This document shows positions 1,115-20,829 of a stretch of 64,000 bases of DNA, one piece after another. The stretch's first letter is position 1; each line of letters opens with the position of its first letter. This DNA is from Clitopilus passeckerianus (taxonomy: Eukaryota > Basidiomycota > Agaricomycetes > Agaricales > Entolomataceae). The stretch covers positions 248,001 to 312,000 of the forward strand of contig CALYLX010000100.1 of NCBI GenBank assembly GCA_944990035.1, written 5' to 3'. The notes under the pieces were generated by a model. The model was given only the letters and a program-made list of their open reading frames with translations, was not told where the DNA came from and ran no database searches. The translations under genes and the position numbers were made by a program.

Positions 1115-2308
1115 TTTTTGAGAGAGAAAAGAATAGAATGACAAGCGAGCGCTCCAGATGTTAAAGACGGTGGGACGTCGCCGTCGTGGGCGCAGAAAGT
1201 TTGACAGACACAAGGTCGGTCGATAGGCCAACCGTATAAGCAGTGTGACGGGGTCTGATGTGTGACCGAGGTTTCAGCACAGAATGTTGACCCGCAAGAT
1301 AACACATCTGGCGGATTTAGGAAACGAGGCAGTGACACGTCTTCACGTTTTCTGCGGTAGAAGAACGTAAATGCCCATTTCGGACGGTATTGCACTGAAC
1401 AAACGTACCAAAATTGAGCGTGTTGCGGGAAACAGGACCGGGACACGCTGCGAACTGCCTTGTTCCATCAGGAAAAGGCCTGGCTCTGTCCCGAGAGATA
1501 GGCACGGCGAAAACTGGCCTACCCATTTGGCCTTCATCAACGGGAATAATCACCGCCCAAAACGGAGATTATGTATTGTGCATGATATCAATCTCGTGTT
1601 TGGCTGCCTCGAGATTTATGGCCATTTCTGCATGGTTTCTTGCACGAAAAGTAACTCTGTAGCACGTCCATGGTGAGGGTACAGGAAGAAAACGCAATTG
1701 GTGCAAATCGTTGGAGCCCGACCTGTTGATGGCTAGGAGCGGGAACGGTCCGCACCACCGAGGACGTTTTCGGCAGTTAATCAATGATTGAATCAAATCC
1801 CTTTGATTACCCAGAGAAATGGGGATGGAAGAAAGGAACAGGGGCCGATAAAGGCTCTGACAATTCGAGGATGACAGGTATGACTCGGGCATTTGAATTC
1901 CAAGCCGAGATCTGCATTGCGACACAACTCTAACAAGTCACGAATTGCTTCTGACTCTGACTACCATGTGCTCGCAGAAGGGACCTATTTCTAGCCCTAT
2001 CTACGGAACTCTTCCATAACCCCTGCTTCTGGCCGCAGTTTTCGAAGCTTGCCAGTTGCAGACCGAAGCAAGTGGACCGAAGCACCTAACTGAGGCTCTG
2101 CTCTGCCACCATTCTGAGAGGACCACCGCTAAATTGTGTTAACTCAAAAAGTCCCAACATCAAGCCACTTTGTGGGGCGAAAGGAAGAAAGTTGGCCGAA
2201 CCATCACCTGGGAGTTAATGGTGGAATATACAATGTTATGGAGCCACCAACGCCTCGAGGGATGGGAGCGATTCTGAGCTATGCTACTTTCATACAGCCC
2301 ATAGGCGT
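1115..2308. other. Intergenic region, no gene seen
   Basis: This is the intergenic region between the Kre6/Skn1-like gene and the dehydrogenase. Its open frames are short, overlap on both strands and show no recognisable motif. It should contain the promoters of both flanking genes. Confidence 0.6.
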
Positions 2309-2310
2309 GC

Positions 2311-2318
2311 TTATATAC
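2311..2318 (+). promoter_or_regulatory. Possible TATA box of the dehydrogenase gene
   Basis: TTATATAC lies about 55 bases upstream of the ATG at 2369. The position suits a TATA element with a short leader, but this is a single AT-rich match. Confidence 0.35.
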
Positions 2319-2368
2319 CTAGCCGGATGGCCTAGCAAGAATGTACGCCAAGAACACCTTCCAGCTCA

Positions 2369-3367
2369 ATGATAGAGAAACAAAGGCGCTTAGTCAACAG
2401 TCCTCAGCCAGCTTCCATCCCTCTCGGAATCTTCGTCGGAGGCACCTCCGGAATTGGTCGAGGAATCGTAGAAGCATTCGCAGTGCATACTCACGGACAC
2501 GCTCATATCATCGTCGTCGGTCGCAACCGCTCTGCGGCTGACGAGATCCTCTCAGCCCTCCCTCGACCCAATGACCCAGGGGCTGAAGCTGTAATCAGAG
2601 AATTCATCCACTGCGACGTCAGCCTCATGCGCAACATTGAAGTCGTAACCACTGCCCTCCTCACGCGGTTCATGAAACTCAACTTCCTAGTCCTAACCCC
2701 CGGCATCCTCTCCATGAAAGGCCGGATCGACACAGAAGAGGGCCTCGACAAGAAGTTGGCGATCCATTATTACGGACGTTGGAAATTTGTTCTTGATCTT
2801 CTGCCTTTACTTCTCCAGGCGCAAAAGGAACGGGAGGACGCGAAGGTGTTGTCGGTGTTGGCTGCTGGGAAAGGAGGGAAGATCGATTCTGGCGACTTTG
2901 GGTTGAAGAAGCATTATTCCACTACGAAGGCTGCGTTAGCTGCGCCTACGTACACGGATCTTATTGCGCAGGTAGGTTGCTTTCCTCTCTTGCTCCTCAA
3001 GCAAGATCTGATTGGCCTAAGGAAGGAACTCGCAGCGCAACATCCAGAAATCACGTTTGCCCACTCCTACCCAGGCATCGTGCGGACGCCGCTTATGTCC
3101 AGAGCAGATTCTGCATTCCTAAGGGTCATCTCGACTTTTACGTTGTATCTGGCCTATCCGTTCTCTATTTCATCCAAAGTGGCTGGAGAAAACATGCTAC
3201 GTGGATTACTGAACGCTAAACAGGGCTTCGTACGCCTTGGGTCGAAGGGAGAGGATATTGGTATGAAGCGGTTCTTTGGCTCGGAAGAGGATAGGGAGAA
3301 GTTGTGGGAGCATACGAGGGAAGAGATGCAATTGTGTAAGAAGCCAGTAGCAGCAATCCGTAAATAG
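2369..3367 (+). CDS. Short-chain dehydrogenase/reductase (SDR)
   Basis: An NAD(P)-dependent oxidoreductase of the classical SDR fold. The dinucleotide-binding motif GGTSGIGRG lies near residues 24-32. The catalytic YxxxK is in HYSTTKAALA, and a serine-containing strand (VLSVLAAGKGG) precedes it. The usual NNAG motif is replaced by LTPG. The frame is open throughout, but positions 2972-3025 (GTAGGT...AAG, 54 nt, phase 0, branch-like CTGAT) look like an intron. Removing it joins IAQ to ELAAQHP and gives about 314 aa, normal for the family. No signal peptide is evident. The substrate cannot be deduced. The start is the ATG at 2369, which leaves a short leader before the Rossmann fold. Confidence 0.85.
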   Translation: MIEKQRRLVNSPQPASIPLGIFVGGTSGIGRGIVEAFAVHTHGHAHIIVVGRNRSAADEILSALPRPNDPGAEAVIREFIHCDVSLMRNIEVVTTALLTRFMKLNFLVLTPGILSMKGRIDTEEGLDKKLAIHYYGRWKFVLDLLPLLLQAQKEREDAKVLSVLAAGKGGKIDSGDFGLKKHYSTTKAALAAPTYTDLIAQVGCFPLLLLKQDLIGLRKELAAQHPEITFAHSYPGIVRTPLMSRADSAFLRVISTFTLYLAYPFSISSKVAGENMLRGLLNAKQGFVRLGSKGEDIGMKRFFGSEEDREKLWEHTREEMQLCKKPVAAIRK

Positions 3368-3477
3368 CGAACAATGTGTGTATGCAGAATAATCAATAAT
3401 GCGAATAAACAATCGTGAATGGCGAACAAATCACAAAACACATGAAAGCAGAATTGTAAAGGCAATTGCAAAATCCA

Positions 3478-5625
3478 TCATCGTGATGTATTCCCCTGAG
3501 CAGGTACCGCTCCCACCACCCCATCACCGTTGAAGGCTCCAGGTATGAACTGCATAGGCACAAACATCTGTTGCGGTTGCCCAGGGCCAGACCCATCCCC
3601 AGACGACCCAGGTGGTGAATGTGATTGGATAAAGTACATGGGTTGAGGTGCGGCGAATGGCTGATACGAGGGATAGCCGTGGCGGTGGGGGCGAGGACCT
3701 CGTGGAATGCTTGACTTGCTGCGTTCAGGAGCGGGAGCTTGCTGGTGCTGGTACGGAGCGTATCCATACGGGAATGGGTAGGGAAAGGGATAGACGGCTG
3801 GGAGGACTGGGCTGGGTGGTTGGATTGGGAATGCGCTGTACTGCGTAATCTGGGTGGTGGTGGTTGCAGAGGACGAAGTTGTATCCCGACGTCTGTCGTG
3901 ACGGTGAGTAGTACGGTGATGAGGCCGATGGTGAGGTCGACGATGTCCGTGGCGACGTGGAGGCTCCGTTGCGCGACGTCTAGTAGGCCTATTGGTCGGA
4001 GCTGGATGCCATTGAGTCCTCGTCGTCACAGTGCTAATCCGCTTGGCTGCAGTTTCGCTTGCAGCGGCTGGAGGAACACCTCCCGGACTCAACAGGTCAA
4101 TGCTGTTGGAGCTTCTAGGCGACATGACAACTCCAGGAGTGCCTCTGTACCACGACCTTGAAGGTTTCTTGCTTACGGCAATTCCATACTTTGAGCCCTT
4201 TCCACGACCAGCTGGAGCATAATCCACCGTAACCCGTTGAGGACCCTGAGCAACCCAAGGCATGTACCACAGCGCACGAACGAAACGGAACAGAGGGTTC
4301 GTCTGCTCGGTGAACGATGGCCCATCAGATAGGTCCGTCGTGTAGGACGTCCTTGATCTGAGAGCAGCTCCCATCTTGCGATAATCTGATGTTGGCATTG
4401 GGTGCGCTTGCACAGGAGCCGTGGATGGAGGAGGACTGGCTGGAGCAGGGGCAGGTTCGCGTCGCGAAGACCGTCCTCCACGACTACTCCTACTTCTCGA
4501 ATTACGAATAGTAGGTGGGCCCGAAGGCATTGGGATCACAGGAGGCGGAATGACGGGTGGTCCAACTGGTGGTGGGGTAGCTGGCGGCTCGCTCGCTGGG
4601 AGTGCGGAGTAGCGGTCTTCTTGAGGCAAGTCATACACGGTGACGGTGTGTTCGGGATGTTGGGGAGGGGGTTCGTTTTCTTCCGGGATTGTCTCCGGTG
4701 GAGGCGATTGGACCATGCCTCCAGGCATCGTATGTGGAATTTCAGGAGTCATTCCGATGTCTTCATTCTGTTCCTCAATATCAGATGGCGGAGTGACGTG
4801 CCAGCTCGGCCCTTGGCGAGGACGAGCACTAATCGACGGTGGCAGATTCATTGAATACTCCGCCCGCATAGGCGTAGGCATTTCTGTTGCTTCCACATAT
4901 ACCGGTCGGCTGACATTCGGCCCCGGATTCTCCGTATACAGAGGAAGTGTATTGCCCCTCTCCAGATCTGCGCCTCGAGTGGGAGAGCCACTGTCAAGAT
5001 CGTATCCTTCCCCATAACTAGCCTTCTCCTTCTTCGACTTTTTCTTCTTCGACGAACCTCTCCGCATGAGGACTCTGGGTAGTCGGCGGAGTCCGCTGAA
5101 GAACCCACCGACGAAACGTCGTGGACTCTCTTCTGGGTCCTCTTGCCGCAATGGCCCAACATCTTCGTATCGCATGGTCGGGGTCTGGAAATCTACGGGA
5201 GGCGCAGGCACGGGCACTCTGCGTACTGGTGGGCGTCCAGTGCTCTCTGTGGGGTACTCCTCCGTTCCGGAACCTTGGGGTTCAATGTTCATGTACTCTT
5301 CGTCATCTTCCATGGTAGGGTTTGTCAAGCGAAGAACGGTGGGATTGTGGGAGTATTGCGAATTGTACTGCATGTACTGAGCTGGATCTGGCAATGGCCG
5401 TGAAGCAGCTCGCTGAGGCGTGGGGTGGGGTGTAGGCTCATCGTCGTCTGGTGGAGGTGGCGGATGTTGAAGGTTGTAGGTAACCCATGACTGGGTACTT
5501 GGTGCCCTGCTCGGATGGTTGTAGTAAGAGTTCGCGTTCGCCGAGTGACGATGTGGATCGACTCCCGGTCCTTCGTGGTAGAGCGATATTCCACGACCAT
5601 CGCTATATTCTGGGTATCCGGACAT
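3478..5625 (-). CDS. Long Pro/Ser-rich basic protein of unknown function
   Basis: A single uninterrupted frame of 715 codons. Most of it is low complexity: proline runs, a polybasic patch (SSKKKKSKKEK, about residue 195) after GGFFSGLRRLPRVLMRRG, arginine-rich stretches, and a Tyr/Pro/Gln-rich C-terminus. One ordered-looking block (FRFVRALWYMPWVAQGPQRVTVDYAP, about residue 450) may be the only folded or membrane-associated part. I recognise no catalytic domain. The polybasic patches could bind membrane or nucleic acid, but that is speculation. The length of the open frame and biased composition make it a credible gene. The antisense frames inside it are shadows. Confidence 0.7.
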   Translation of the reverse strand: MSGYPEYSDGRGISLYHEGPGVDPHRHSANANSYYNHPSRAPSTQSWVTYNLQHPPPPPDDDEPTPHPTPQRAASRPLPDPAQYMQYNSQYSHNPTVLRLTNPTMEDDEEYMNIEPQGSGTEEYPTESTGRPPVRRVPVPAPPVDFQTPTMRYEDVGPLRQEDPEESPRRFVGGFFSGLRRLPRVLMRRGSSKKKKSKKEKASYGEGYDLDSGSPTRGADLERGNTLPLYTENPGPNVSRPVYVEATEMPTPMRAEYSMNLPPSISARPRQGPSWHVTPPSDIEEQNEDIGMTPEIPHTMPGGMVQSPPPETIPEENEPPPQHPEHTVTVYDLPQEDRYSALPASEPPATPPPVGPPVIPPPVIPMPSGPPTIRNSRSRSSRGGRSSRREPAPAPASPPPSTAPVQAHPMPTSDYRKMGAALRSRTSYTTDLSDGPSFTEQTNPLFRFVRALWYMPWVAQGPQRVTVDYAPAGRGKGSKYGIAVSKKPSRSWYRGTPGVVMSPRSSNSIDLLSPGGVPPAAASETAAKRISTVTTRTQWHPAPTNRPTRRRATEPPRRHGHRRPHHRPHHRTTHRHDRRRDTTSSSATTTTQITQYSAFPIQPPSPVLPAVYPFPYPFPYGYAPYQHQQAPAPERSKSSIPRGPRPHRHGYPSYQPFAAPQPMYFIQSHSPPGSSGDGSGPGQPQQMFVPMQFIPGAFNGDGVVGAVPAQGNTSR

Positions 5626-8302: not shown

Positions 8303-9336
8303 AGTCGTCGTTAAATCTCGAGTCGACGATGGTTGTGGAGGTTAGGAGGGTCCAACAACGAGAATGGGAAGTGGAGAAAGTTGGCTTATGTAATCTCGGT
8401 CATACGCATTTGTATATTTTCGAGGTTCCATTAGCACGCTCTCGAATCTGGCAAGTACCCACCGCCGAGTCCTTTTTCCGGCGGCTTTTTGCAGCCTTGA
8501 AACACGCTTACAGGCACCGTTGAATCCGTTTCTCGGCGAGTGTGCTGCCAGGAAAAAAGCCACCGGGCAGACTGAGAAACAACTTTTCATCACGCCAGAT
8601 GTCAGGGTGCGATGCCGAATTGTGCATGCTCGATGGAATGATGCCGTCGTCAGTGTAACTCATTTCAATCTTGACGGAAACAGTGGCGTTTCTAGCTCTG
8701 TGTATAGTTAGACTATTGTTCGCTAGGGTTCTTGCCACGTATTGAAATGCTTTGAGCCTTTGAGGATTGTTCTTCCGCAGAAGGGCCTTTAGGCGAGGGA
8801 ACCTCGGAAGATTCGTGATGCCTCCAGACTCCGATGCCCAGTGCCCAGGTGAACCTGTACGTGTACCAGACCTGTACCTACTTCAAACCTGCTTCGGACC
8901 ATGTTCGTGTCGACTCAGCACGGATCATAAATGCTATCTCTTCCGGGTTTTGTTTGCTACCTGAAGCCTAAGCCTAATTTCAGAGAACATCTTTATTCGC
9001 CCATCTCTCGGAAGATTACTATAATGTTTCTACTGGGTCTATGGTTTGCAAAACCTTGAAATTCCTCTCTACATGCCCTCCTAGCTATTCGTTGAAAAGG
9101 ATCGAATAACTTGAGGTGGCGCGTTGTGACTTTGCTTTCACCATGGAAGATTCGGAGGTCAGAAGATAGCCAGCTTTGACTCTGTCTTCTGTCGTCTCAT
9201 CTCTACTCGGCTGCTCGGAGGACATCTACGTCGCGGATGCTGACGACGGTCCAGCAAACTTGACTCTCTCAAAACCTCTCTTAGACATGAACGACTTTAG
9301 TTCAAAGCTTGACCTCATTTAGCTTCTTCCTAGAGG
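8303..9336. other. Intergenic region between the poly-Gln gene and hydrophobin 1
   Basis: Divergent promoter space. The frames present are short, contradictory on the two strands and without motifs. No gene is supported. Confidence 0.6.
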
Positions 9337-9343
9337 TATAAAA
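9337..9343 (+). promoter_or_regulatory. TATA box of hydrophobin 1
   Basis: TATAAAA occurs 135 bases upstream of the ATG at 9472. A CT/CA-rich leader (ACTCAACAG, CTCTTCTATC) follows, typical of strongly expressed fungal genes. The pseudogene copy has only a weaker equivalent. Confidence 0.6.
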
Positions 9344-9471
9344 CCCCTACCAATTCTCTCGAAATACTCAACAGAACAACCACTTCTACTCTCTTCTATC
9401 TTCTCAGATTTCTTCAGCTATCTAACCAGACCAACCAGTCTAAACACCTTCTCTTACCACCTACCCCAACA

Positions 9472-10053
9472 ATGTTCACTCGCATCCACGCTCTCCTCGC
9501 CACCGTCGCTCTTGCCTCCTACGTCTCCGCCGGCGTGATCGTCGAGCGTCAGGGCGTTCAGGGATACTCCAGCAATGACTGTAACACCGGTGAAATGCAC
9601 TGCTGCAATGACACCCAGGATGTTAGTTGTAGATGTCTTCTCGATCGATGTACACTTCGCTGATAGTTTTGATCCTTAGACCAACACTGCCGTCTGGAAG
9701 ATGATCAAGGACGCGATTGGCGCTGAAGGCGGCAGCCTTACTGGTATGATTGGCCGTAAGTTTCTATATCATGCGTCGACCTTGAACCTATCACTTACCT
9801 TCGCTCCAGTCAACTGCAACCCCATTACCGGCGCCGCGCTTGGAGGTAGCATCAACTGGTACGCTTGATGAGTTACGGGACGAAAAAATTGCTAACTTTC
9901 TGCATTCTACAAGCTCTCAACAACCCGTCTGCTGCACTGGCGTTTCCTTCGTGAGTCCTTGGTGACTTTCTTTCACCCCACGAGCTAGCTAACTTCTGAA
10001 TCCAGGACGGCCTCATCCCTGTTGGCTGCAACTCCATCAACGTCAACGCCTGA
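9472..10053 (+). CDS. Class I hydrophobin (intact)
   Basis: A small secreted, surface-active protein that self-assembles into an amphipathic layer on hyphae and fruiting bodies. Five exons: 9472-9621, 9680-9755, 9810-9858, 9914-9950 and 10006-10053, totalling 360 nt (119 aa plus stop). All introns are 54-58 nt with GT-AG ends. Residues 1-20 form a signal peptide ending ASYVSA. The mature part has exactly eight cysteines in the hydrophobin order: C, CC, C, C, CC, C (NDC, HCC, NCN, INC, VCC, VGC). The spacing between the third and fourth Cys is long, as in class I. The gene converges on membrane-protein copy 1. A frameshifted paralogue lies at 21658-23136. Confidence 0.95.
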
Positions 10054-10484
10054 GCACTTTCATGTCTATTACTACGTCGCCCCAAGGGCCTAGCCATAGT
10101 CACATCTTGGACTCGTATCCCACCGTATACACATTATCATTTCTTGTTCTCGTAGCACAGCTGGTTGTTCTTCACCGGCAGCGTCTATACCCGTTCTTTC
10201 CTTGTCGTAGCGTACATTCTTTGAATATTAGTTGCTTTAACCCCCGTAGTTGGGATAAAAACGGTATTGGACTGAGCGTTTTCCTTGGCGGGCGACGGTA
10301 CGATTGCCCGATTCCAAGTGGTCGCTCTTGGGGCAAGTAATTAACTGATGGTTTCCCTGGTCGGCGAGTTTGAGAAGACAAGAGAAAAGTTTACGTATTT
10401 GAAAGTTGATTGATACAATCGTCGGAGTCGTAGGGGCTTATGTACATGTTTGATTACTAGGAAGCTAGCGGTATCGTAAAGGTA
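10054..10484. other. 3' flank shared by the duplicated units
   Basis: This convergent intergenic segment is recognisably similar to 23137-23450. Shared words include a CGTAGC...TTTGAATAT.AGTTGC stretch followed by GTTGGGATAAA. It therefore belongs to the duplicated unit and probably holds the 3' UTRs of both genes. No coding frame is supported. Confidence 0.6.
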
Positions 10485-10988
10485 TCACTCATCGACCACC
10501 ACCTCTGCTTCCCGGATATCCAGCTCCCAGCTCCCGTCCACGTGCTCAATAAAGCCCGCCATGTAACAAGTATCGCTCCATATCCAATCGACCGTCAAAA
10601 TCTTGTCCACCTGTGCACCCATCTGTCTTCCCACAGTCGTAGCCTCTACCCTCTGCCCAGAAACAGCAAGTAGTCGTTCGACCAAACGAGGATCGGAAAG
10701 ATAGAGATCCGCTACCGGTTCGACCAGAAATTCTGCGACCCGTAAGAGTACGTCTGCAACGGTGATCTGTGCTCCTCTTTCAATAATAAGCCTGGGTGGG
10801 ATGTTCTGGTGGAAAATATTCAGCTTGGTCGTTGGCGTGAGTGATGCGGGGGCTGATAGTTGCTCCAGCGAAAAGACATTCTGAAGGGAGAAATCTGGAC
10901 TACTGCATAGATATTTCCTGGGAAGAAGACGTTGGAGAAGAGGCGAGACCCCCAGACCAAAAGTCACGTTTGGGGTCACTGCCCTTAC

Positions 10989-10998
10989 GCCTTGAAAT
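10989..10998. repeat. Target-site duplication, left copy
   Basis: GCCTTGAAAT, repeated exactly at 17953-17962. Ten bases is within the 8-11 bp typical of Mutator-like elements. Confidence 0.93.
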
Positions 10999-11006
10999 GG
11001 GCTACT

Positions 11007-11130
11007 AGAAAACTGCAGCTGGACTTGCAGAGCCTGCAGTCGGTGCAGTTAGCTGCGGTACCCTGCAGTCAGCTGCAGTAGGGTGCAATTAAGGTGCGAA
11101 CAGCTGCAGTCATGTTGCGGCAGATCGGCC
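11007..11130. repeat. Left terminal inverted repeat and TGCAG-rich subterminal region
   Basis: Starts with AGAAAACTGCAG and contains about seven TGCAG words spaced 8-15 bp apart. It mirrors the right end at 17870-17944. The likely role is transposase binding (inference). Confidence 0.8.
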
Positions 11131-11439
11131 ACGGTGTTACAAGTAGCGTACCGTTATCAATATCGCATTCTATTCAAATAATGGAGTGTATTCATTCCGT
11201 ATTCGCTCTTAATTCCCTCTCAAGGAATCATCAGGAATGACCATCATCCTTCAAAAATAACAGAGACAAACATTGACGTGCGGCACTCATGCTGGAGATG
11301 CAAGGATACCATCTGTTCGGTAGACAATCCCCTACATATATTCACTAAGTTCTGAGGCCTGGATCTGATTCTAATACATCATGGGACACTATGTATATAG
11401 GTCAGACTAATTCCACAAGCACTGGTATTGCTCAAGCCT

Positions 11440-14400
11440 CTAGTTTTTGGCCTTTCTTGCGGGTTGCCGACGAGAACGCCCAGTAGCAGGTTTTTTCTTG
11501 GCAGGAGCTTTTGGCGCCGGAATTACAATTTGATTCCGTTTGGCCAAGGGTCTCGGCTTGGGCTGTGGCTTGCGTGGCTGTTCAACGATCTTCTGTTCGG
11601 GCCCCACGAGGAATTCAGGGCCAGGCTGTGACATCACGATCAGTCCCTGCATGCTGTCAGCCATCGTGGCCACTCACCTCCATTTCAGACTCGCTCCAAG
11701 CCTGATAATCGTGGCTACACCAATCGCTCGGTGTTCCCTTCCAGGGGTCCCAATGGTTCTGATGGTCTCCTGCATCTAATCCCCACTGGTAGAACCCTGC
11801 AATTCCTGCACCTGGCGATCGCGTAAACATCTCTCTTTCAAGCCTCGCCAAGCACTCTGCATCGACATCGACCACCTTCTCTTCCATCCGTGCTTCAGTA
11901 TACTGAAGGGTCCATGCCTGGTTGATAAAGTCCTCGACCTTCCGCCCTCTAAGCTTGTCCTTCTGGAGTGCTTGCTGGTACATCTGATCTGCGATGAACA
12001 AGGTAATGGCATGTGCACCTGGGACACATCCAACCCAGTCAGGGCGAAGGCGACGATTTTCGGAGATGTGGACCTCAAACCAGTTGGCAACTCGGGCCCG
12101 TTCAGCTACTGACAGACCACCGGCAAACGAAACTTGGTGCTTGGTAATGTCCTTTCCTTGCGATTCAAGGTAGTGTTTAGCCGGGATGTTGACTTCGGTG
12201 CCCAGCGAATCGGGTTTCTTCAGAAGTGTCGTCAAGATACTAGTCCAAGGTGAGAGCCGCTGTGACATCCGGTGTGTATGGGATCACTGATGGATCTGAC
12301 AGAATATCCTCGCTTTCATCATACCCATACGGCGGATGATCCCAGTGGCCAAGCTTGAACACAATAAGTAAGTCGAATTCACCTGGGTTCAATCTCAATC
12401 ACTTACTCGGATTTGTCTTCTAGCGTGACGGTCTAGCCATAGACTGTCAGTAACGTCCTCTCCCGCGACCATAGACGTTGCTTCTGGCTGAGGTTCGGAC
12501 TTGTCAAACCTGCACCCCCTCCACCATCGAACCTTCCATTTCTTCACCTTCTGATTGTTCTCCTTTACAACCCACTGAATTAACCTGACAGGATACCAGT
12601 AGGTCCCATGGCGAGCAAGAGCACCACAACCAGCTTTTAATCGCTTTTTCAGAGGAGGAAGGTCATTGGCGCTATCGAGACTCTCAAGCCTAGATGATCA
12701 GTGAGTTCCATTTCCGATCCGGTGACTAATTTCTACTTACCTTTCCCATTCAGCCTGATCTTCCTTTGCAATGAAAAGCTCGAGGTCGTCAATCCTACAC
12801 TCATCACATAGGAATCCTTGTTTCTTCGTCAAACCGTGAGCTCTTCCCTTCCTCTGGCACGCTATATGACACCAGTTTTCGCAGGCATCGCAGCAGACAG
12901 CAGCACCATCCTCCTTATCACGATACAGAAGGTTTCCATCGCCCACCACACCACATCGACACTTGAAGTCGAAGTCTTCATTCGGTCCGGATTTCCCTGA
13001 GGATGAAGGTGCGGAACTTGCAGAATCGTCGGATTGAACCTTATCCTCGGATTTGGTACGTTCATCGTCTGAAGAGGTGTCTGAGGTACCGTCTGACTTG
13101 TTCTTGGCGAGCAACAGTTCGGTTTCCTTCGATTCTGGATCGGAGTCTTCAGATTCGATATCGGGTGACGGGGGAGGTGGGTTTTCTTTCTTCTTCGAAC
13201 TATTCCCTTTCACGTACTCTCGAGTCGAAGCAGTGAATGGGTTAGACAGCCAGAATCGCTTTATTGGATCCATATCAACAAGTCCTTCATCACTGTATCG
13301 GACATCCGGTAGCTTCTCTAGTGATTCTCCGATGATCTGAAGGCTAAATCTGCGTGATAGCTCGGATTTACGTTGCTGGAAGAAGTCGAGTTGGGTGGTG
13401 GTTCCTCCTCGAAGACGATAGACGGCGGCGCAGACTTTGTATCCAGGTGGAAGGCTTGGTGAAGATCCGGAGAGATGTGAGGAAACGGTAGCGGTGGGTT
13501 CAGGAAGGGCATGGCCATTGTGAGTGAGGTCATCGTATGTGTAGACTGTGTTCCTGTCTTCGCTAGCGAATCGAGCAATAAAATGTGACTTTCCGCTGCT
13601 GTGGAGCCCAAGGCCGATTAACTCGTAAACGACACCTTTCTCCTTGCCTTTCTGTTGCGCTTTTGCCTTTGGGAGTGGGACAAGAACTTCGGGGAAGTTC
13701 CAAGCGATAGTAGAGTCTGCTGAGACCGTGCTATCAGCCACTTCGATGATGAAGACCACCGGAATTGAAACCACGAGGTCACGAATGTCTTCTCGGGTTC
13801 CAGAGCAGTGTCGCTCGCCTGCTTTGACTCGCCAACAGCCTGACGGAACAGCCGTTCGCTCGCGGTCAAGGGAAAGCAGGGATGAAAACCAGGCAGAAAC
13901 ATCGCCATTAAAGGCAGCATGGTCGGAGGTGGATAGCTGTCGCTGTGTTTCGCGTCGAGCTGGTGCTAATACTGCGACATGTTTCCCACCTGAGGTTGGC
14001 GACCCAGTACAGTAGTGGATCTCGGCTTTCACAAGTTCAAAGTAGGCTGAAGCATCATATGAAAGTGACGAGGCATCTGCAGCCTTACAGGTCGTATCAT
14101 AGAGCCAGGACTATGGAATTATCAGTTGTTAGAATACTAGTAGAAAAGGATACAGATTAGAATGCCACTCACCCACTGAGGTTGGAAACCAAATGGTTTC
14201 TGCAGGTCGACTGCTCCTGTTCGAACAAGTTCCTTTCGAAGAGCGTCACGGTGAGTTGTGAGAAGTTTGACGTCCAGTTCCACACCCTCTGACTGACGGT
14301 CAGGAGACTCCAAAGCGTAACGGCCGTTGAGACATTCAAAAACTGCCTTGAGTCGGTTGTCATCGGGGAGATTATCGAAAAGAACATAGAAGTCGATCCA

Positions 14401-16845
14401 GTTGCATACGACTGCAGCGTACAGAAGTGTCAGCGAGGAGTCGAGCCAGCATGAATTCTTCTTGAAAGAGTATGAAAGAATCGGGCTTGGGATTTTGACA
14501 GCAGCGGCCGAGCGACGTGGTAGTACTCCACGTTTTAGAGTAGCCTTTTGGGTTTGTTTGAGAATATCATGCTGCTTCCGAGCAGCTTCTGCCGATGCCT
14601 GAAGCTTTTCCTTGAAGTTCTTCTTCATTCGCTGGCGCCTTGTTTCGACCTTGGGCCTGGGCTTTTTCTTTGGTGCAAGTTCACGAATGGTATCTGGTGC
14701 GCGCCCACGATCATCATTCTCTTCATCGACTTTGGCACCTTGCTGATTTCGGGGACGTTTGGTGAGGCCAAACTGTTCAGCACGATTTTTATGGGGTTCA
14801 GGGACGCCATAACGGGTGGGGACTCCTCCTATACTGCGGTATTAGCTTCTAGAATATCGAATGTGAGATTCAGTCATACCTTTCTCCGCTATATAAACTC
14901 TTTCGTTATGATCGGCATTTCCTCGCAGTGCGTACAGTCCAGAGAATAGGGAATGGTCCTTGCCGGATCCAATGTAGAGGGTATTGTGAATGGACTCCTC
15001 TGCGTTGGTGGTAGATGGAATACTGTCCCAAATGTCTGGGTCCATCATCCGTTGAGATTTGAATAACATAGCAGCATGCGCTGCCCGAAGCCACCATTCT
15101 AGCCATGGGATCGCTCCTGGAAAATTGTCTAGAAGACCATTGCTGAGCGATTGAAAGTCGGAGTCTGTAGTAGCATCCAAAAGAGCCATAACTCGACTCT
15201 TGAATTCGTTGATGCGATTGGGGGGAACAGCATGACCGACTCGGGAAACACGAACAAGATTCTTCTGAAAGTGATAAACACACCCTCGAAGAAGTGCTGG
15301 TGCCGCCATCTCTAGTTCATCCTTAGTGCGAGAGTCATCGGGTCTGGCCTCCCAGAACTTGATGAAAGCTCTCATAAACCCCAAGCGTTGTGAATCACTA
15401 AAGTCAACGACCTAAAAATTATGTTAGAATCAAGCGGGGATTTTACGAACCAGGACTCACATTGATAAACAGTTCATCTTCGATTGCCATTTTACGTTTA
15501 CTCGCTTCCTCCGCAATGCCCTCAAATAAAGTAAGGAAGTGGAACATGTAGTGCGTGGCACTGACACCATCAGAATACGAGTAGAGAGCAGGGGTCCATC
15601 GAGAGGTCTCTAGTACATAGACTGATGATATAATGAGGATTGAGGTTCGGTCCTTCCAGAATTTATGCGCGCCGTCCGAGAGAATTCCATTTATAGGCTC
15701 GTCAATGACCGCCTCACGAACAAGCTGAGAGCGCATGAAGTCTGTTTGAAGACAGATAACTGTGACTGGATCCATAACTTCGCGTCGAACAAACCCTGGA
15801 TTCTCCCGCTTGAATTGTCGGAAAGTAGCAAAGAAAGTGTCACCAGTCCCAACTACACCTTGGAGAACACTCTGTCTTTCATATCCTACACGGCCAAGGT
15901 TCTGAAGCGCCGGATTGATATCTGCGACTGATTTTCCTGGTCCTTTCAGTCCAGGAACGCCGACTACTAGCTGAAGAGGTGTAGCCTTTGGGTTGGCGAT
16001 GACAAGTTCGGCAAATTCATCCGTTTCGCCAGGGAGGAGATGAAGAGTGCGGGGAGGTTTGGGATGGCCGTGCTCGAGCCGGTTGGTGAACTGTATACCG
16101 CCTTTCCACTTCCGAAGCTCTCCCCTGACAGAACAGGGAATATGAAGGAGTGCGCCGATATGACATATGGGACATGGATCTCGGAGCTGTAGTTCGATAT
16201 CGGCCTGAGTCTTCGCAAGGGGCCGTAAAAGAAATTGGCATCCTTGACCGTTTGGTAACCGCTTTTCGCAAGTGATAACGCCATAGCAGACAATATGGGA
16301 GAGGCGACCGCCCTCAGGTTCCTGTGCATTAATGCCGCCTTTTTTCGTGGGATAGTTGCGGTGAGCCCAGTGGATAACCAGAGTGTTGCCCATGCGTGCA
16401 TATTCTTGGTATGAGACGTCGCATTTGATGTTACCGTCCGGCCAGCCTGTCCAGCGTTCCAGGACGCGTTGCTGCGATGGATCAGAGAGGTCGCGTGTCG
16501 GGGGGATAACAGGAGGGGAAGGGATCTCTTTTCCGGTGCTGGTGGGCGTATCTTGCGGGGGTTCAGTTAGCCTGCTTGCGACTAAGTCTGCGAGCCGATT
16601 CAGATCGATTCCTGTCAAATACATGTAGCGAGTCCATTAAGCAAGAACGAAGCCATGACATACCAGCGACATCTCCTTGACCTTCCCCTCTCACGGGCTG
16701 CTGATTGCGATGCTCAGAAGCCGATCCCGCTGTTTGATTGGCCTGCGATGGCGGATCGAAGAAGTCAAGTAAATGACGGATGAACCCCTAAAGTCCTATT
16801 AGATAACAGCGGTCGGAAAATGAAGAGCGGGCATACCAGAAACAT
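11440..16845 (-). CDS. MULE transposase fused to GCM zinc domain, USP-like protease and PHD finger
   Basis: Ten exons by my model: 16845-16837, 16787-16664, 16611-15461, 15411-14880, 14828-14173, 14110-12741, 12689-12407, 12353-12325, 12239-11678 and 11625-11440. They sum to 4,902 nt, an exact multiple of three, giving 1,633 aa. Domain order: GCM-type zinc domain (about 85-235; WAHRN, CYGVITC, LRP, CPIC, IPC, EHGHPKP); MULE DDE core with D357 (SDGAHKFW), D431 (VVDFSD), CxxH 472-475 (CVYH) and E566/567 (TNAEES); basic NLS-like APKKKPRPK; a cysteine-protease Cys box (NSCWLDSSL, Cys732) with matching His/Asp box (SHFIARF...YTYDDL, His1000); an acidic linker; a PHD finger (about 1200-1265, ending CDEC); and a Lys/Arg/Pro-rich tail. 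Presumed nuclear: it would cut and join the element's ends, and the PHD finger could read chromatin. Exon 8 and its flanking 85-nt intron are the least certain parts. Confidence 0.88.
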
Positions 16846-16989
16846 GGCCGGGCTGTACCAATACTTGGTGGAACAAGGAAAGGCGCAAAATATCTGCGAT
16901 ATGGGGGTCAATAATTTTGGAGGTGATCGGCGCGGCCTCGATCACTGGTCAGTGGTCATCAAATATCCGAGCATCAATGTATTCCCGGT

Positions 16990-17192
16990 CAGCGGTGGTG
17001 ACACAGGCTCTGCAGAACGGATGCAGCAGGTTGCAGTCTATAAGAGATAGCCTGCAGTGTAGTGCAGAGAGGTGCGGTCAGTTGCAGTCAGGTGCAGACC
17101 GGTGCAGAGAGGTGCAGACCGGTGCAGTCAGGTGCAGTCAGTTGCAGAGTGGTGCAGACCGGTGCAGACCAGGTGCAGAAATGTGCAGGCAA
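16990..17192. repeat. Dense GTGCAG subterminal repeat array of the MULE
   Basis: About 17 TGCAG words, mostly in GGTGCAGACC / GGTGCAGTCA / GTTGCAGTC contexts at 8-12 bp spacing, lie just upstream of the transposase start. They could be transposase-binding sites or an autoregulatory promoter element (inference). Confidence 0.8.
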
Positions 17193-17869
17193 GATGCAGT
17201 AACAGATAAACAGAGCTTTCTTGGACCAAGACCAGTCATAGTACGAGGTAGATGTCATTATGATTGCCAGATAGTGTTGAAAAGATATTTGATTGCTTCG
17301 CTCATGTCATCTAGATGTACTTGAATAGTGTGAATATCTAATGCTGATGAACATATATGTGAGCTATTCAAGATTATAATAGTAGGATAGAGTACCAAAT
17401 ACCTTCAATTACTCGATATCTGTGTCCAAAATCTCCTCTTATGATACAGAATTGCGGGCTGAAGGTCTCGCAACGTAGCGTCAATGGGCGAGATGACAGT
17501 TCAAGCGGAGATCGAAACGTCCGCAATCTTGGCTTGGCCTATGACCAAGTCTTCATGAATTATTTTGTACATATATGCCCAGAAGATCCATTATACGCTA
17601 TACTTACACCACGGATGAGTGTTAAATATCTCTACATAATTCAATTGAGAGTGCTACATTCATCCTTCATTGCTTTTCCAAGTACCTTTACCCATCAAAC
17701 TATTTAGACCCCGACATTTCACCCCCCAAGTGACCAAGATCGGTCGTTGCTTCGCACAAGACTTGGGCATCCAGATGAAAAGGTAGCCTATGGTTCAATT
17801 AAATGTATGTAAAGGTTCTCTACATGAAATCTAAACTACAATGTATAGGTTACAATATGGCTAACGGCA
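17193..17869. other. AT-rich non-coding part of the MULE
   Basis: Between the subterminal array and the right inverted repeat. AT-rich, with no supported coding frame. Confidence 0.6.
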
Positions 17870-17944
17870 CGTACTGCAGAAGATGCTGCAAGTAGCCTGC
17901 AGTTGAGCTGCAGAAATGGCTCTGCAGATCGACTGCAGTTTTCT
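17870..17944. repeat. Right terminal inverted repeat and TGCAG-rich end
   Basis: Ends in CTGCAGTTTTCT (complement of the left AGAAAACTGCAG), with five or six TGCAG words inside 75 bp. Confidence 0.85.
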
Positions 17945-17952
17945 GTGAACCG

Positions 17953-17962
17953 GCCTTGAAAT
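17953..17962. repeat. Target-site duplication, right copy
   Basis: GCCTTGAAAT, identical to 10989-10998. Confidence 0.93.
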
Positions 17963-20829
17963 ACTTCTAAGAGTGGCGGAGTTGGAGCGGAAGGCATTGG
18001 AGGGATAAATGGAAGCGGGGGTGCCTCTGAAAATCTGGGTGACGACTCCCACTGGCCACTATTAGCATTTCGCATTGCTAGAAGCGAGTTAGTATACCAC
18101 GGTTGTGTTTAGAGCGGGGCACGAATGGACTAACTGCTTCGGGGCATCCAAACCGTTCTTGGCGATACATTCTCCATCTCGTGGGGATATGAGACATGGA
18201 TCGAAGGGAGACTTCCATGTCCGGGCAATGGTTGCGGAGACGGAATATAATTTGTGACGCCGGGGGAGCCCATTGTGCTTGGAGGAGAAGTCATCATATA
18301 CGTGGAACTCCTACTGAAAGATGGTTCACCAATGGTGTAATTCTCAGGACTAAACTGCAGTCTTTTCCTCGGGATCGTCTCCGGGGGCGACACTGCTCTG
18401 CTAGGTGTTGCCAGTCTGAGTATCAGAGCCCCAGTATCGTCCAACACATCACATCTCGCTACACTTCCAGACATATGGTTGAAGCGACGTTCAAGATCAG
18501 ACGTGAAGGCGAGATCTGTGAGGTAAAGGACGTAGTGCTCAAGATGAGATGGCGGATGACCTGTTTCGAGGCATAAGAGCGCCTCCAACTGGCGTGGCCT
18601 AAACTCCTTCTCATTCCATCGCCGTATGATAGACAGAAGGGCTTCCATGGCCAAACTGTAGTTTTGCCATGGCCGGTTTATCTCCTATAAAATATTATGG
18701 AAATAAGAAAGTCATGTTTTCGTGCTATCGCGGGAAAGCTCACTCGGATGAAGGCGTCCCATTTCCGCTGTCCATCGTGACCGAGCCTCATTGTGAGGAT
18801 ATATGGGGGCGTTCCTAGATACTGATTTGCCGATCCAAAGGCAAACTTCAAGACCGTTATTGGCCTGTAGAATACGGTCGGATAATTGTCGCCTGTTCCG
18901 GTTGAAAGGGGTTCGGTTGGCTGCAGTTGTATCATTGGCACTGGCATCTCGGTCACTGCGTCCGGGGAGTAATCGTTTGACGTATTTAGATCGGATTCCT
19001 GGTGCCTCAAAGGGCTGGTATCATACGAAGTAGGTTCGTGAACCCGTTGAGCGTCAGAGGTGGTACGGCGACGCGTGAGATGCGCTGGCCCATCGGGTGT
19101 ATTGACAGAAGATGCGTCCGATTCGTCGTTATCGCCATTAAGACTGGTCACCCATGCGCGATCCATTTGAGCACCATAGCGTCTGAGGGTGCTGAGGATC
19201 AGAGCTAGATATATCATGCCTGCGACCAGCAGGACACTAATCCCGACCCTCGCAGCCAGTCGAAGACGGGAAGATAGGACCTTCACACTGTCCGGTGATT
19301 CGACGAGCCAGATGAACGCGAATATCTCCGCCACAAAGAGAATAAGTGACCTGGTAACGCCGAATCTGAGTCAGAGAAAGTCGAACTAACAGTAACTAGC
19401 GTACCAGGACAACCATATAGCCGGAATCGACAAGAATATCCAAACATTCCAGAACGGGGCGGTTTTAGTTGCCTCGCCTTCCTGTGCGTGGGATTAACGA
19501 ACTCATCTCCTGAACGGCGTTAAAAAACTCACTCTCGCCCACTCAACCGCTTTGTGAAGAGGCCGCATGATTGAGAATCGAATAATGTACGTGCAGCTGT
19601 AGATCAGGCTCATCAAACCGCAAACTAGTGCTGCGAAACCGATGTAGCGAACGACTTCATTTGCAAACACCGGTCCAATCTGCATCGAAGATATGATAGC
19701 TCTAGAACATGGGCCCATTTAGAGAGACGATAGTTTGGTATTGGGCTGCCAGACTTACGTCAAGAGAAGAACAGCCACGATATTCATCGTCTTCCACTCC
19801 TTCGTCACCGCATCCAAGAACGTGTTCCACAGTGTCTTCAAGCTCTCGACCTCAGGCGGACATTGAGAAAGGTCATAGTATACATGAGCGCTGCCAGGTG
19901 TGTGGAGTTCACCATCTCGGTTGCGATTGCTCTTGATCTCCTGTCTATTCCGTTTGACGTTTTCTTTTATGGCATCTTTAAGCCTCTCTCCACTGCATTG
20001 AACCTCCTTGAATATCTCCGTTACACGGCTATAGTAAAGGAGGGGAAGGAAGAGTAAAAGCGTGTTGAATGCCTGGACCGATGACGCTGCCAACAATCTC
20101 CTGGCTTGCGGCAATAGCCTGGCCTTCTTTCTGCGGGGGTTGGGGTTGCTTGGGGCTGCGCCGGGCTGAGGAAGGGCGCTCTCCGTGACGATATCACCAA
20201 CGGAAGGGAGTTCATCCGTTAATGATGGCAATGAAAGATTATATGGATTGCCAGGCGTATACCCGTCCCTGAATGGCGTCGGAAGTGGGTATCCAGGATC
20301 AAAGTGCCATCTCTTGTCTGGCATGGTTGAGAAACGGGCTAAAGGTACGTGATCTGTGTGAACCGGCCACGATATGAGCGTGTTGTCCATTGGTAGATAA
20401 TAGCTACACATTTACCCCGATAATCACCATTTCCATAGCCACGAGGATACGTGTATAACCGTCGGCCTGTTCGTTGATTTGTCTCGCTAATGGAAGCACC
20501 CTCACGCTGGTCAATGGAGGGGAACGGCAGTTGGCTACCTGATAAGCCGGGAGGCGGAAGGGTAGGAACCTGAGAAAAAGGCGCCTCTGCGACCCAAGTC
20601 ACGCCAGATGAGCTAGCATGTTGTAAGGGGGGACGGGATCCGATAAAGGCTTGTTGGAGGTCTGAAGGATTAGTGGCGACATGCAGGTGCGGTCTGTCCT
20701 CTTGGTTGTCCATGAGCTTGGGAGTGCCTTCGATACTGTTGGGAGGGAGTGATAGTACAGACAGAAAAGCCGCCGTCTGAATGAAATGCGATGATAGCAA
20801 TTCTCCTGTATCGCTCTTGTGGGTCCAGG

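Follow-up and report, generated by a model that had tools for sequence, protein, structure and literature searches.

A MULE-like transposon of mushroom-forming fungi whose transposase is joined to a predicted USP-type protease fold and a PHD finger

Introduction

Ubiquitin-type proteases (Ulp1, OTU, VTD, C19) have been acquired repeatedly by unrelated transposons, and a role in transposition has been suggested only (PMC9741609, PMC2836005; these and the papers below are cited for their passages on the present subject). Ginger1 transposases carry OTU or Ulp1 domains, and Ginger1-9_HM has Ulp1 plus a PHD finger. In the same source Ulp1 is named for hydra, lancelet and plant Mutator elements, a figure legend describes an alignment in which Ulp1 and PHD domains from Ginger1 transposases stand beside those from Mutator transposases, and a transposase_11 of T. 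vaginalis is joined to peptidase C19 (PMC2836005). Helitrons encode VTD and OTU deubiquitinases; activity was demonstrated for VTD, and the authors proposed that transposition proteins are thereby shielded from the proteasome (PMC9741609). Here we describe a transposon of the fungus Clitopilus passeckerianus, found in a 64,000-nucleotide stretch of contig C100 (the window), whose gene joins a Mutator-like element (MULE) type of DDE transposase to a USP-like cysteine protease domain and a PHD finger.

In a survey of Mutator-like (MULE/MuDR) elements, target site duplications (TSDs) measure 8-11 bp and terminal inverted repeats (TIRs) 14 to 500 bp, and Rehavkus, the outgroup, combines a minisatellite and 9-bp TSDs with a PHD finger; the main text of that survey uses none of the words protease, peptidase, ubiquitin or GCM (PMC6446971). 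In RAG1L-RAG2L transposons a PHD finger accompanies a DDE transposase, and the sea urchin RAG2L PHD binds histone H3 with dimethylated K4 (PMC7204232). Some fungal DNA transposons carry a TET/JBP dioxygenase; the main text of that report holds none of the words PHD, protease, peptidase, ubiquitin or GCM (PMC12730594). Among the papers listed in searches of the open-licence literature, no title or abstract described a MULE with USP and PHD domains, subscription papers and Repbase lying outside the scope of this search.

Results

The window covers positions 248001-312000 of C100 in the 64.8-Mb C. passeckerianus assembly, and all positions below are window positions unless stated otherwise. The initial annotation had placed a DNA transposon at 10999..17952, and these limits proved exact. 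The 6,954-bp element starts with GGGCTACTAGAAAACTGCAG at 10999, ends with CTGCAGTTTTCTGTGAACCG at 17952 and is flanked on both sides by the 10-bp TSD GCCTTGAAAT (10989..10998 and 17953..17962). Its TIRs are imperfect (10999..11018, plus strand; 17933..17952, minus strand), the left end recurring at sites on C110, C26, C66, C123 and C126. The pentamer TGCAG is concentrated near the ends, with 7 occurrences in the first 300 bp and 22 in the last 1,000 bp against 4 in the intervening 5,654 bp. Between the right end and the start codon lies an array of 10-bp units (17062..17188, plus strand; consensus GTGCAGACAG), a period of about one helix turn per unit. The end repeats, among them the left subterminal group (11014..11110, plus strand), and the array are candidate transposase binding sites.

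The element has transposed in the past. Searched at the DNA level, the genome yielded 14 matching pieces, including that of the window itself, and no complete undamaged copy of the window family was found among the 14. The C26 copy has an internal deletion and a TSD matching at 9/9 bp (TCGAACAAA). Two copies of ~2.6 kb each, on C66 (L019) and C123 (L020), share an internal junction (1178|5483 in query positions) at different sites; the TSD is clean in the former (9/9 bp, TTGTTTAAG) and matches at 8/9 bp in the latter. Because a shared deletion junction stands at different sites with TSDs, these deletion derivatives were apparently mobilised in trans, as a non-autonomous subfamily. The C110 copy lacks query positions 1978-3909 and holds a Gypsy-like element there instead, and comparing its flanks revealed no clear TSD. 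The C114 copy is diverged (64%) and interrupted by another Gypsy-like element. One end only was found at C139, and C126 holds a single 38-bp end piece. The two inserts (L015/L016 on C110, L021/L022 on C114) are ~7 kb each, with long terminal repeat (LTR) identities of 97.6% and 99.8%; Pack-MULE capture was rejected for them, since their LTRs and frames, recognised by eye, read as those of Ty3/Gypsy elements. Several loci, such as the UCH matches of C20 and C110, occur as near-identical pairs on two contigs, an arrangement suggestive of an assembly that includes both nuclei of a dikaryon.

The gene lies on the minus strand (11440..16845) and was modelled with GT-AG introns, the splice sites being picked by eye. 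The ten exons are 16845-16837, 16787-16664, 16611-15461, 15411-14880, 14828-14173, 14110-12741, 12689-12407, 12353 onward (where the frame is broken), 12239-11678 and 11625-11440, and the model is colinear with relatives. It gives 1,631 residues rather than the 1,633 annotated initially, a length that would suit an 85-nt variant of the 91-nt intron discussed next; Cys732, His1000 and the first PHD cysteine, 1208, are numbered identically in both. The claim of an intact frame had to be withdrawn. Where the model requires a 91-nt intron (12240..12330), relatives hold conserved coding sequence (EDxLxDP...PYT), so that this intron is false, with a net 2-nt deletion at ~12257-12266, and both other copies covering the break (L015 and L017) carry two bases absent from the window copy.

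The DDE core (14896..15787, minus strand) had been annotated as that of a MULE with a CxxH insertion, and its residues are all present and conserved in relatives: D357 (15674-15676), D431 (15403-15405), C472xxH475 (15271-15282) and E567 (14995-14997). A DDE core with a CxxH insertion is the MULE pattern; here CxxH stands between the second D and the E, and the TSD beside the TIRs, 10 bp at the window, falls within the 8-11 bp of such elements. A Pfam scan of the window exons gave no match for DDE or protease at E up to 1. In an HH comparison of the DDE core with a PF10551 (MULE) frame of the host, 71 columns around the CxxH only were aligned, with P 0.027 (controls 0.22, 0.53, 0.77), and a similarity of the transposase to IS256 reached E 0.095. 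The GCM-type zinc domain that had been proposed upstream (residues 98-227; 16064..16453, minus strand) scores 16.1 bits with PF03615 in the window, below the cut-off of 25, but 3/28 relatives match this model (best E 2.3e-05) and the Cys/His columns are kept. WRKY-GCM1 zinc fingers were reportedly treated by Babu et al. in 2006.

The USP-like protease domain follows (residues 722-1069; 13376..14481, minus strand), with predicted catalytic residues Cys732 (14449-14451), His1000 (13583-13585) and Asp1017 (13532-13534). Its motifs run NSCWLD ... HFIAR ... YTYD, the Cys box first, which fits the Cys, His, Asp/Asn order of USP (C19) enzymes. Ulp1 (C48) proteases have the catalytic order His-Asp-Gln-Cys; this type was rejected by the Cys box preceding the His box. 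A VTD deubiquitinase was rejected likewise by catalytic order, the conserved Asp lying 17 residues past the His and not in an Asp-x-His arrangement. The lack of a papain-like protease fold around Cys732/His1000 had been named as a refutation of the initial annotation; structure models of two relatives display a USP fold throughout the domain. Cys582 and Cys292 of these models fall on USP7 residue 223, which we take to be the catalytic Cys, when counted gap-free from the first aligned residues. Ubp8 was tied with USP1, USP18 and USP12 among the fold matches and was not the top row for the second model. Because these match lists are filled by the USP domain, they contain no row for the MULE, PHD and C-terminal parts. 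USPs have a four-Cys zinc site in their fingers, and candidate zinc-finger-like residues within the present domain are conserved as well (C858, C916 and C926 each in 31/31 covered rows of the alignment described below, H868 in 29/31).

Sequence searches with the protease gave less. Neither C98 (USPL1) nor UCH (C19) was among the Pfam matches of the window (E up to 1) or of 28 relatives (E up to 0.01); a single protease sequence had no match in PDB, a 15-row profile had a single unrelated PDB match (E 0.49), and a PHROGs scan of the relative P0033 gave no match. HH comparisons with USP exons of the host, one of them using 13 of the 15 profile rows, reached P 0.011 and 0.021 over the His box only (controls 0.60, 0.87), which may count as support, not proof.

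The PHD finger of the initial annotation (12797..12961, minus strand) was borne out. The C4HC3 zinc pattern is present (1208, 1210, 1231, 1234, H1239, 1242, 1259, 1262), with the aromatic W1237, and PF00628 is matched in the window at E 6e-05 (23.4 bits, cut-off 24) and by 15/28 relatives at E 0.01. With a profile of 28 relatives, 45 PDB sequences were matched (E up to 1), the best being the PHDs of Bye1 (E 1.3e-10), SHORT LIFE and ASH1L. Many members keep the tryptophan that precedes the zinc His, but it is replaced in a Mycena group. A small beta-rich domain follows (residues ~1296-1345; 12497..12646, minus strand), conserved and formed by strands of high predicted local distance difference test (pLDDT) score in the P0033 model. 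Downstream of the frame break, the alignment and the same model delimit a C-terminal helical domain (residues ~1423-1556; 11720..12121, minus strand).

Two overlapping protein searches, which scored the 7,986 and 7,988 candidates with most shared words, returned 35 and 56 homologues, at least 74 of them distinct and some whole-length, in other fungi. Going by the printed genus names, 72/74 presumably come from mushroom-forming fungi; the others are P0035 (Entomortierella) and the nameless P0064. The homologues are annotated as hypothetical, uncharacterized, PHD-type or GCM domain-containing proteins. P0035, from Entomortierella parvispora, is a distant homologue from outside the mushrooms (Cys box NSCPVD, His box HFCCTVF...YDG) and is possibly an older relative of the transposase-protease fusion.

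The window protein was aligned with the first 35 homologues, and each column was counted over rows with a residue there. The DDE residues are invariant (D357 35/35, D431 34/34, E567 27/27), as are W961 and H1000 of the protease (34/34 each); C732 is kept in 23/25 rows, the remaining 11/36 being gapped and hence uncounted, D1017 in 33/36 and the PHD cysteine C1208 in 27/29. Support that is weak from the window by itself thus becomes strong through column conservation in relatives. By motif pattern, the first Asp of the DDE core was found in 63 of the 74 homologues, the Cys box in 45, the His box in 49, the PHD in 33 and Cys and His boxes together in 35; these counts are probably lower bounds, because many of the gene models are fragmentary. 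With P0034 and P0035 left aside, pairwise identities of transposase and protease are correlated (rho 0.54, 403 pairs), as are those of GCM domain and protease (rho 0.34), and in both cases 0/999 permutations were as high. As judged by these identities, the domains of the fusion protein have diverged together.

Two further families with the same domain order, colinear with P0001, are present in the C. passeckerianus genome, where a search with P0001 found at least 43 pieces (28/44 candidates scored). In the second family, copies of 6.94 kb on C79 and C66 are 99.1% identical; their TIRs are GGGCTACATGATTTTTGCG / GGGCGACGTGATTTTTGCG, and they are flanked by the TSDs GTTGCTGCA and ATGTAGGCC. A further C79 copy has GGGT at one end, a large insert and GCGACTTTA flanking both sides. 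The TIRs of this family thus start with GGGC (GGGT at that one end), and 9-bp TSDs were found at 3/3 copies. The motif GHFTAR...FDYND is present in the C79 and C66 copies; the C79 copy also has NSCYLD and a PHD with unusual spacing of the second zinc pair. Short arrays lie between the left end and the gene, and GCGTGCA occurs twice in the first 300 bp and once in the last 1,000 bp but nowhere inside; both are likewise candidate transposase binding sites. The third family, at C157, has NSCWLD, GHFIARF...FTYND and a regular PHD. The second-family copy at C79:441792-476123 (L054/L055), apparently the one with the large insert, measures ~34 kb between matching TSDs, corresponding to an insert of ~27-28 kb.

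At the window the element is inserted into a coding exon of a host DUF6699 gene (10485-11048 plus 17963-18108), part of which is 10485..10998 on the minus strand. The frame 10485-11048 matches DUF6699 (PF20415) with 26.4 bits (cut-off 24.1), and joining the host flanks with one repeat kept restores a 219-aa frame on the minus strand, open over the insertion site. A cluster of genes related to the interrupted one lies at C126 and farther along C100. C126 was considered as an empty site and rejected, being the element-free region of a diverged paralogue and not an allele: protein similarity ends ~18 residues before the junction, and a gapped DNA alignment of 59% identity crosses it. About 1 kb from the insertion, 9334-10060 encodes a small cysteine-rich secreted protein, hydrophobin-like in appearance.

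Discussion

We conclude that the locus is very probably a cut-and-paste MULE-like transposon of mushroom-forming fungi, in which a single protein combines transposase, USP-type fold and PHD finger. The initial annotation had proposed such a single-gene fusion, and the results uphold it: the order of domains recurs in three families of the genome and in annotated proteins of other fungi. For this identity together with the mechanism proposed below, our confidence as the best overall explanation is only somewhat better than even.

Several observations weigh against this interpretation. PF10551 was matched neither by the window exons nor by 28 relatives at E 0.01, and the Pfam MULE model found only an unrelated locus, at C97, in the genome; the Pfam UCH model had 56 matches there, none of them within the element. 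The fold models represent two relatives and not the window protein. USPs usually hold an asparagine or aspartate for the oxyanion hole five residues before the Cys; here the position is W in 23/24 covered rows and F in the window, and because of this replacement we name the domain USP-like and do not file it as a C19 member. At D1017, Asp is absent from 3/36 rows and replaced by Asn in the second and third families; the C114 copy has apparently lost its Cys box. All four motifs are found by pattern in 17/74 homologues and the Cys box in 45/74, counted in annotated models only, and some absences are possibly true losses. The end enrichment of TGCAG is absent from the second family (first 300 bp, 0; last 1,000 bp, 1; inside, 9), for which the idea of end repeats as binding sites is weaker. 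Since the coding sequence is conserved in relatives and L015 and L017 have the two bases, the window copy is frameshifted in its C-terminal part, past the PHD finger, unless the assembly has an error at this place, and it may no longer work by itself. Finally, we infer every binding and enzymatic activity, be it on ubiquitin, SUMO or histones.

In the mechanism that we propose, the N-terminal zinc domain would bind the terminal and subterminal TGCAG repeats, and the DDE core would cut the element out and insert it with a target duplication of 9-10 bp. The PHD finger may anchor the complex on histone H3 tails, with K4 probably methylated, and the USP domain may act on the transposase complex and on proteins close to it, stripping them of ubiquitin or of a ubiquitin-like protein; its chief effect would be to keep the transposase from destruction. 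Tentatively, and with less than even confidence, we favour this stabilisation of the transposase complex as the main role of the protease over histone deubiquitination, a scaffold or self-processing.

The strongest competitor, which we nevertheless regard as unlikely, is that the PHD brings the complex to active promoters, where the USP domain deubiquitinates histones H2B/H2A and so eases integration or averts silencing. The Ubp8 match might seem to point that way; being tied with other USPs and not the best for the second model, it speaks for the fold only, and the cage tryptophan is replaced in the Mycena subgroup. More doubtful still is an extended form, in which a widespread mushroom lineage opens its own landing place, its PHD reading H3K4-methylated promoters and its USP stripping ubiquitin from histones or silencing factors. 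Such a protein would be, to our knowledge, the first transposase with a histone reader, a USP-type ubiquitin eraser and a DDE nuclease in one chain. We hold it improbable that the domain is a ubiquitin-binding scaffold, a USP fold of little or no enzymatic activity, like that of Pan2, kept for binding ubiquitin or partners: a scaffold would not need the catalytic residues, which are retained at the columns of Cys, His and Asp in nearly all covering rows (23/25, 34/34 and 33/36). That the protease cleaves the long protein, separating the transposase from a chromatin-binding part, is very improbable; the big single frame and the low-pLDDT stretches on both sides of the protease would suit this, but USP-fold enzymes act chiefly at ubiquitin-like C-termini. 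Scarcely credible is an artefact in which the spliced model fused neighbouring genes or captured host fragments: splice sites were picked by eye and the 91-nt intron among them proved false, but relatives, like the two other families of the genome, keep this order from end to end, and the divergence of the domains is correlated.

Retention of the USP fold and PHD alongside the transposase across many mushroom genera suggests that both have remained under selection, and the combination looks like an old, selected way to handle host proteins and chromatin. The element offers a single-protein system in which the role of transposon-borne ubiquitin-type proteases becomes testable, and a set of mushroom proteins filed as 'hypothetical' or 'PHD-type domain' is explained as transposases. 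Because the USP part escapes Pfam, NCBIfam and PDB sequence searches, further such elements may have been overlooked.

Among described systems, MULEs share the DDE core with CxxH. They also share the zinc domain and the TSD, 9-10 bp here against 8-11 bp in the survey, and the present TIRs, ~20 bp, compare with 14-500 bp (PMC6446971). Ginger1 and Mutator transposases with Ulp1 likewise join a transposase to a ubiquitin/SUMO-type cysteine protease, in Ginger1-9_HM with a PHD too (PMC2836005); Ginger1 belongs to another superfamily, and its Ulp1 contrasts with the Cys-His-Asp USP fold found here, but on the published description its Ulp1 plus PHD is a close precedent for the combination. The T. 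vaginalis protein also bears a C19-type ubiquitin hydrolase, on a transposase of the transposase_11 type, and the passage concerned mentions neither PHD nor GCM (PMC2836005). Helitrons carry a deubiquitinase as well, but VTD has a papain-like fold and a flipped Asp-x-His triad, and Helitrons are rolling-circle elements (PMC9741609). In RAG1L-RAG2L a DDE transposase works with a PHD finger that is on a second protein, and the relevant passages mention no protease (PMC7204232). The TET/JBP elements are fungal DNA transposons with a chromatin-acting domain, a dioxygenase where the present element has protease and PHD (PMC12730594). As far as these sources go, a transposase with a ubiquitin-type protease was already known and the combination of MULE-like transposase, USP fold and PHD appears to be new; the parallels in the literature suggest a benefit of deubiquitinase domains to transposons (PMC9741609, PMC2836005).

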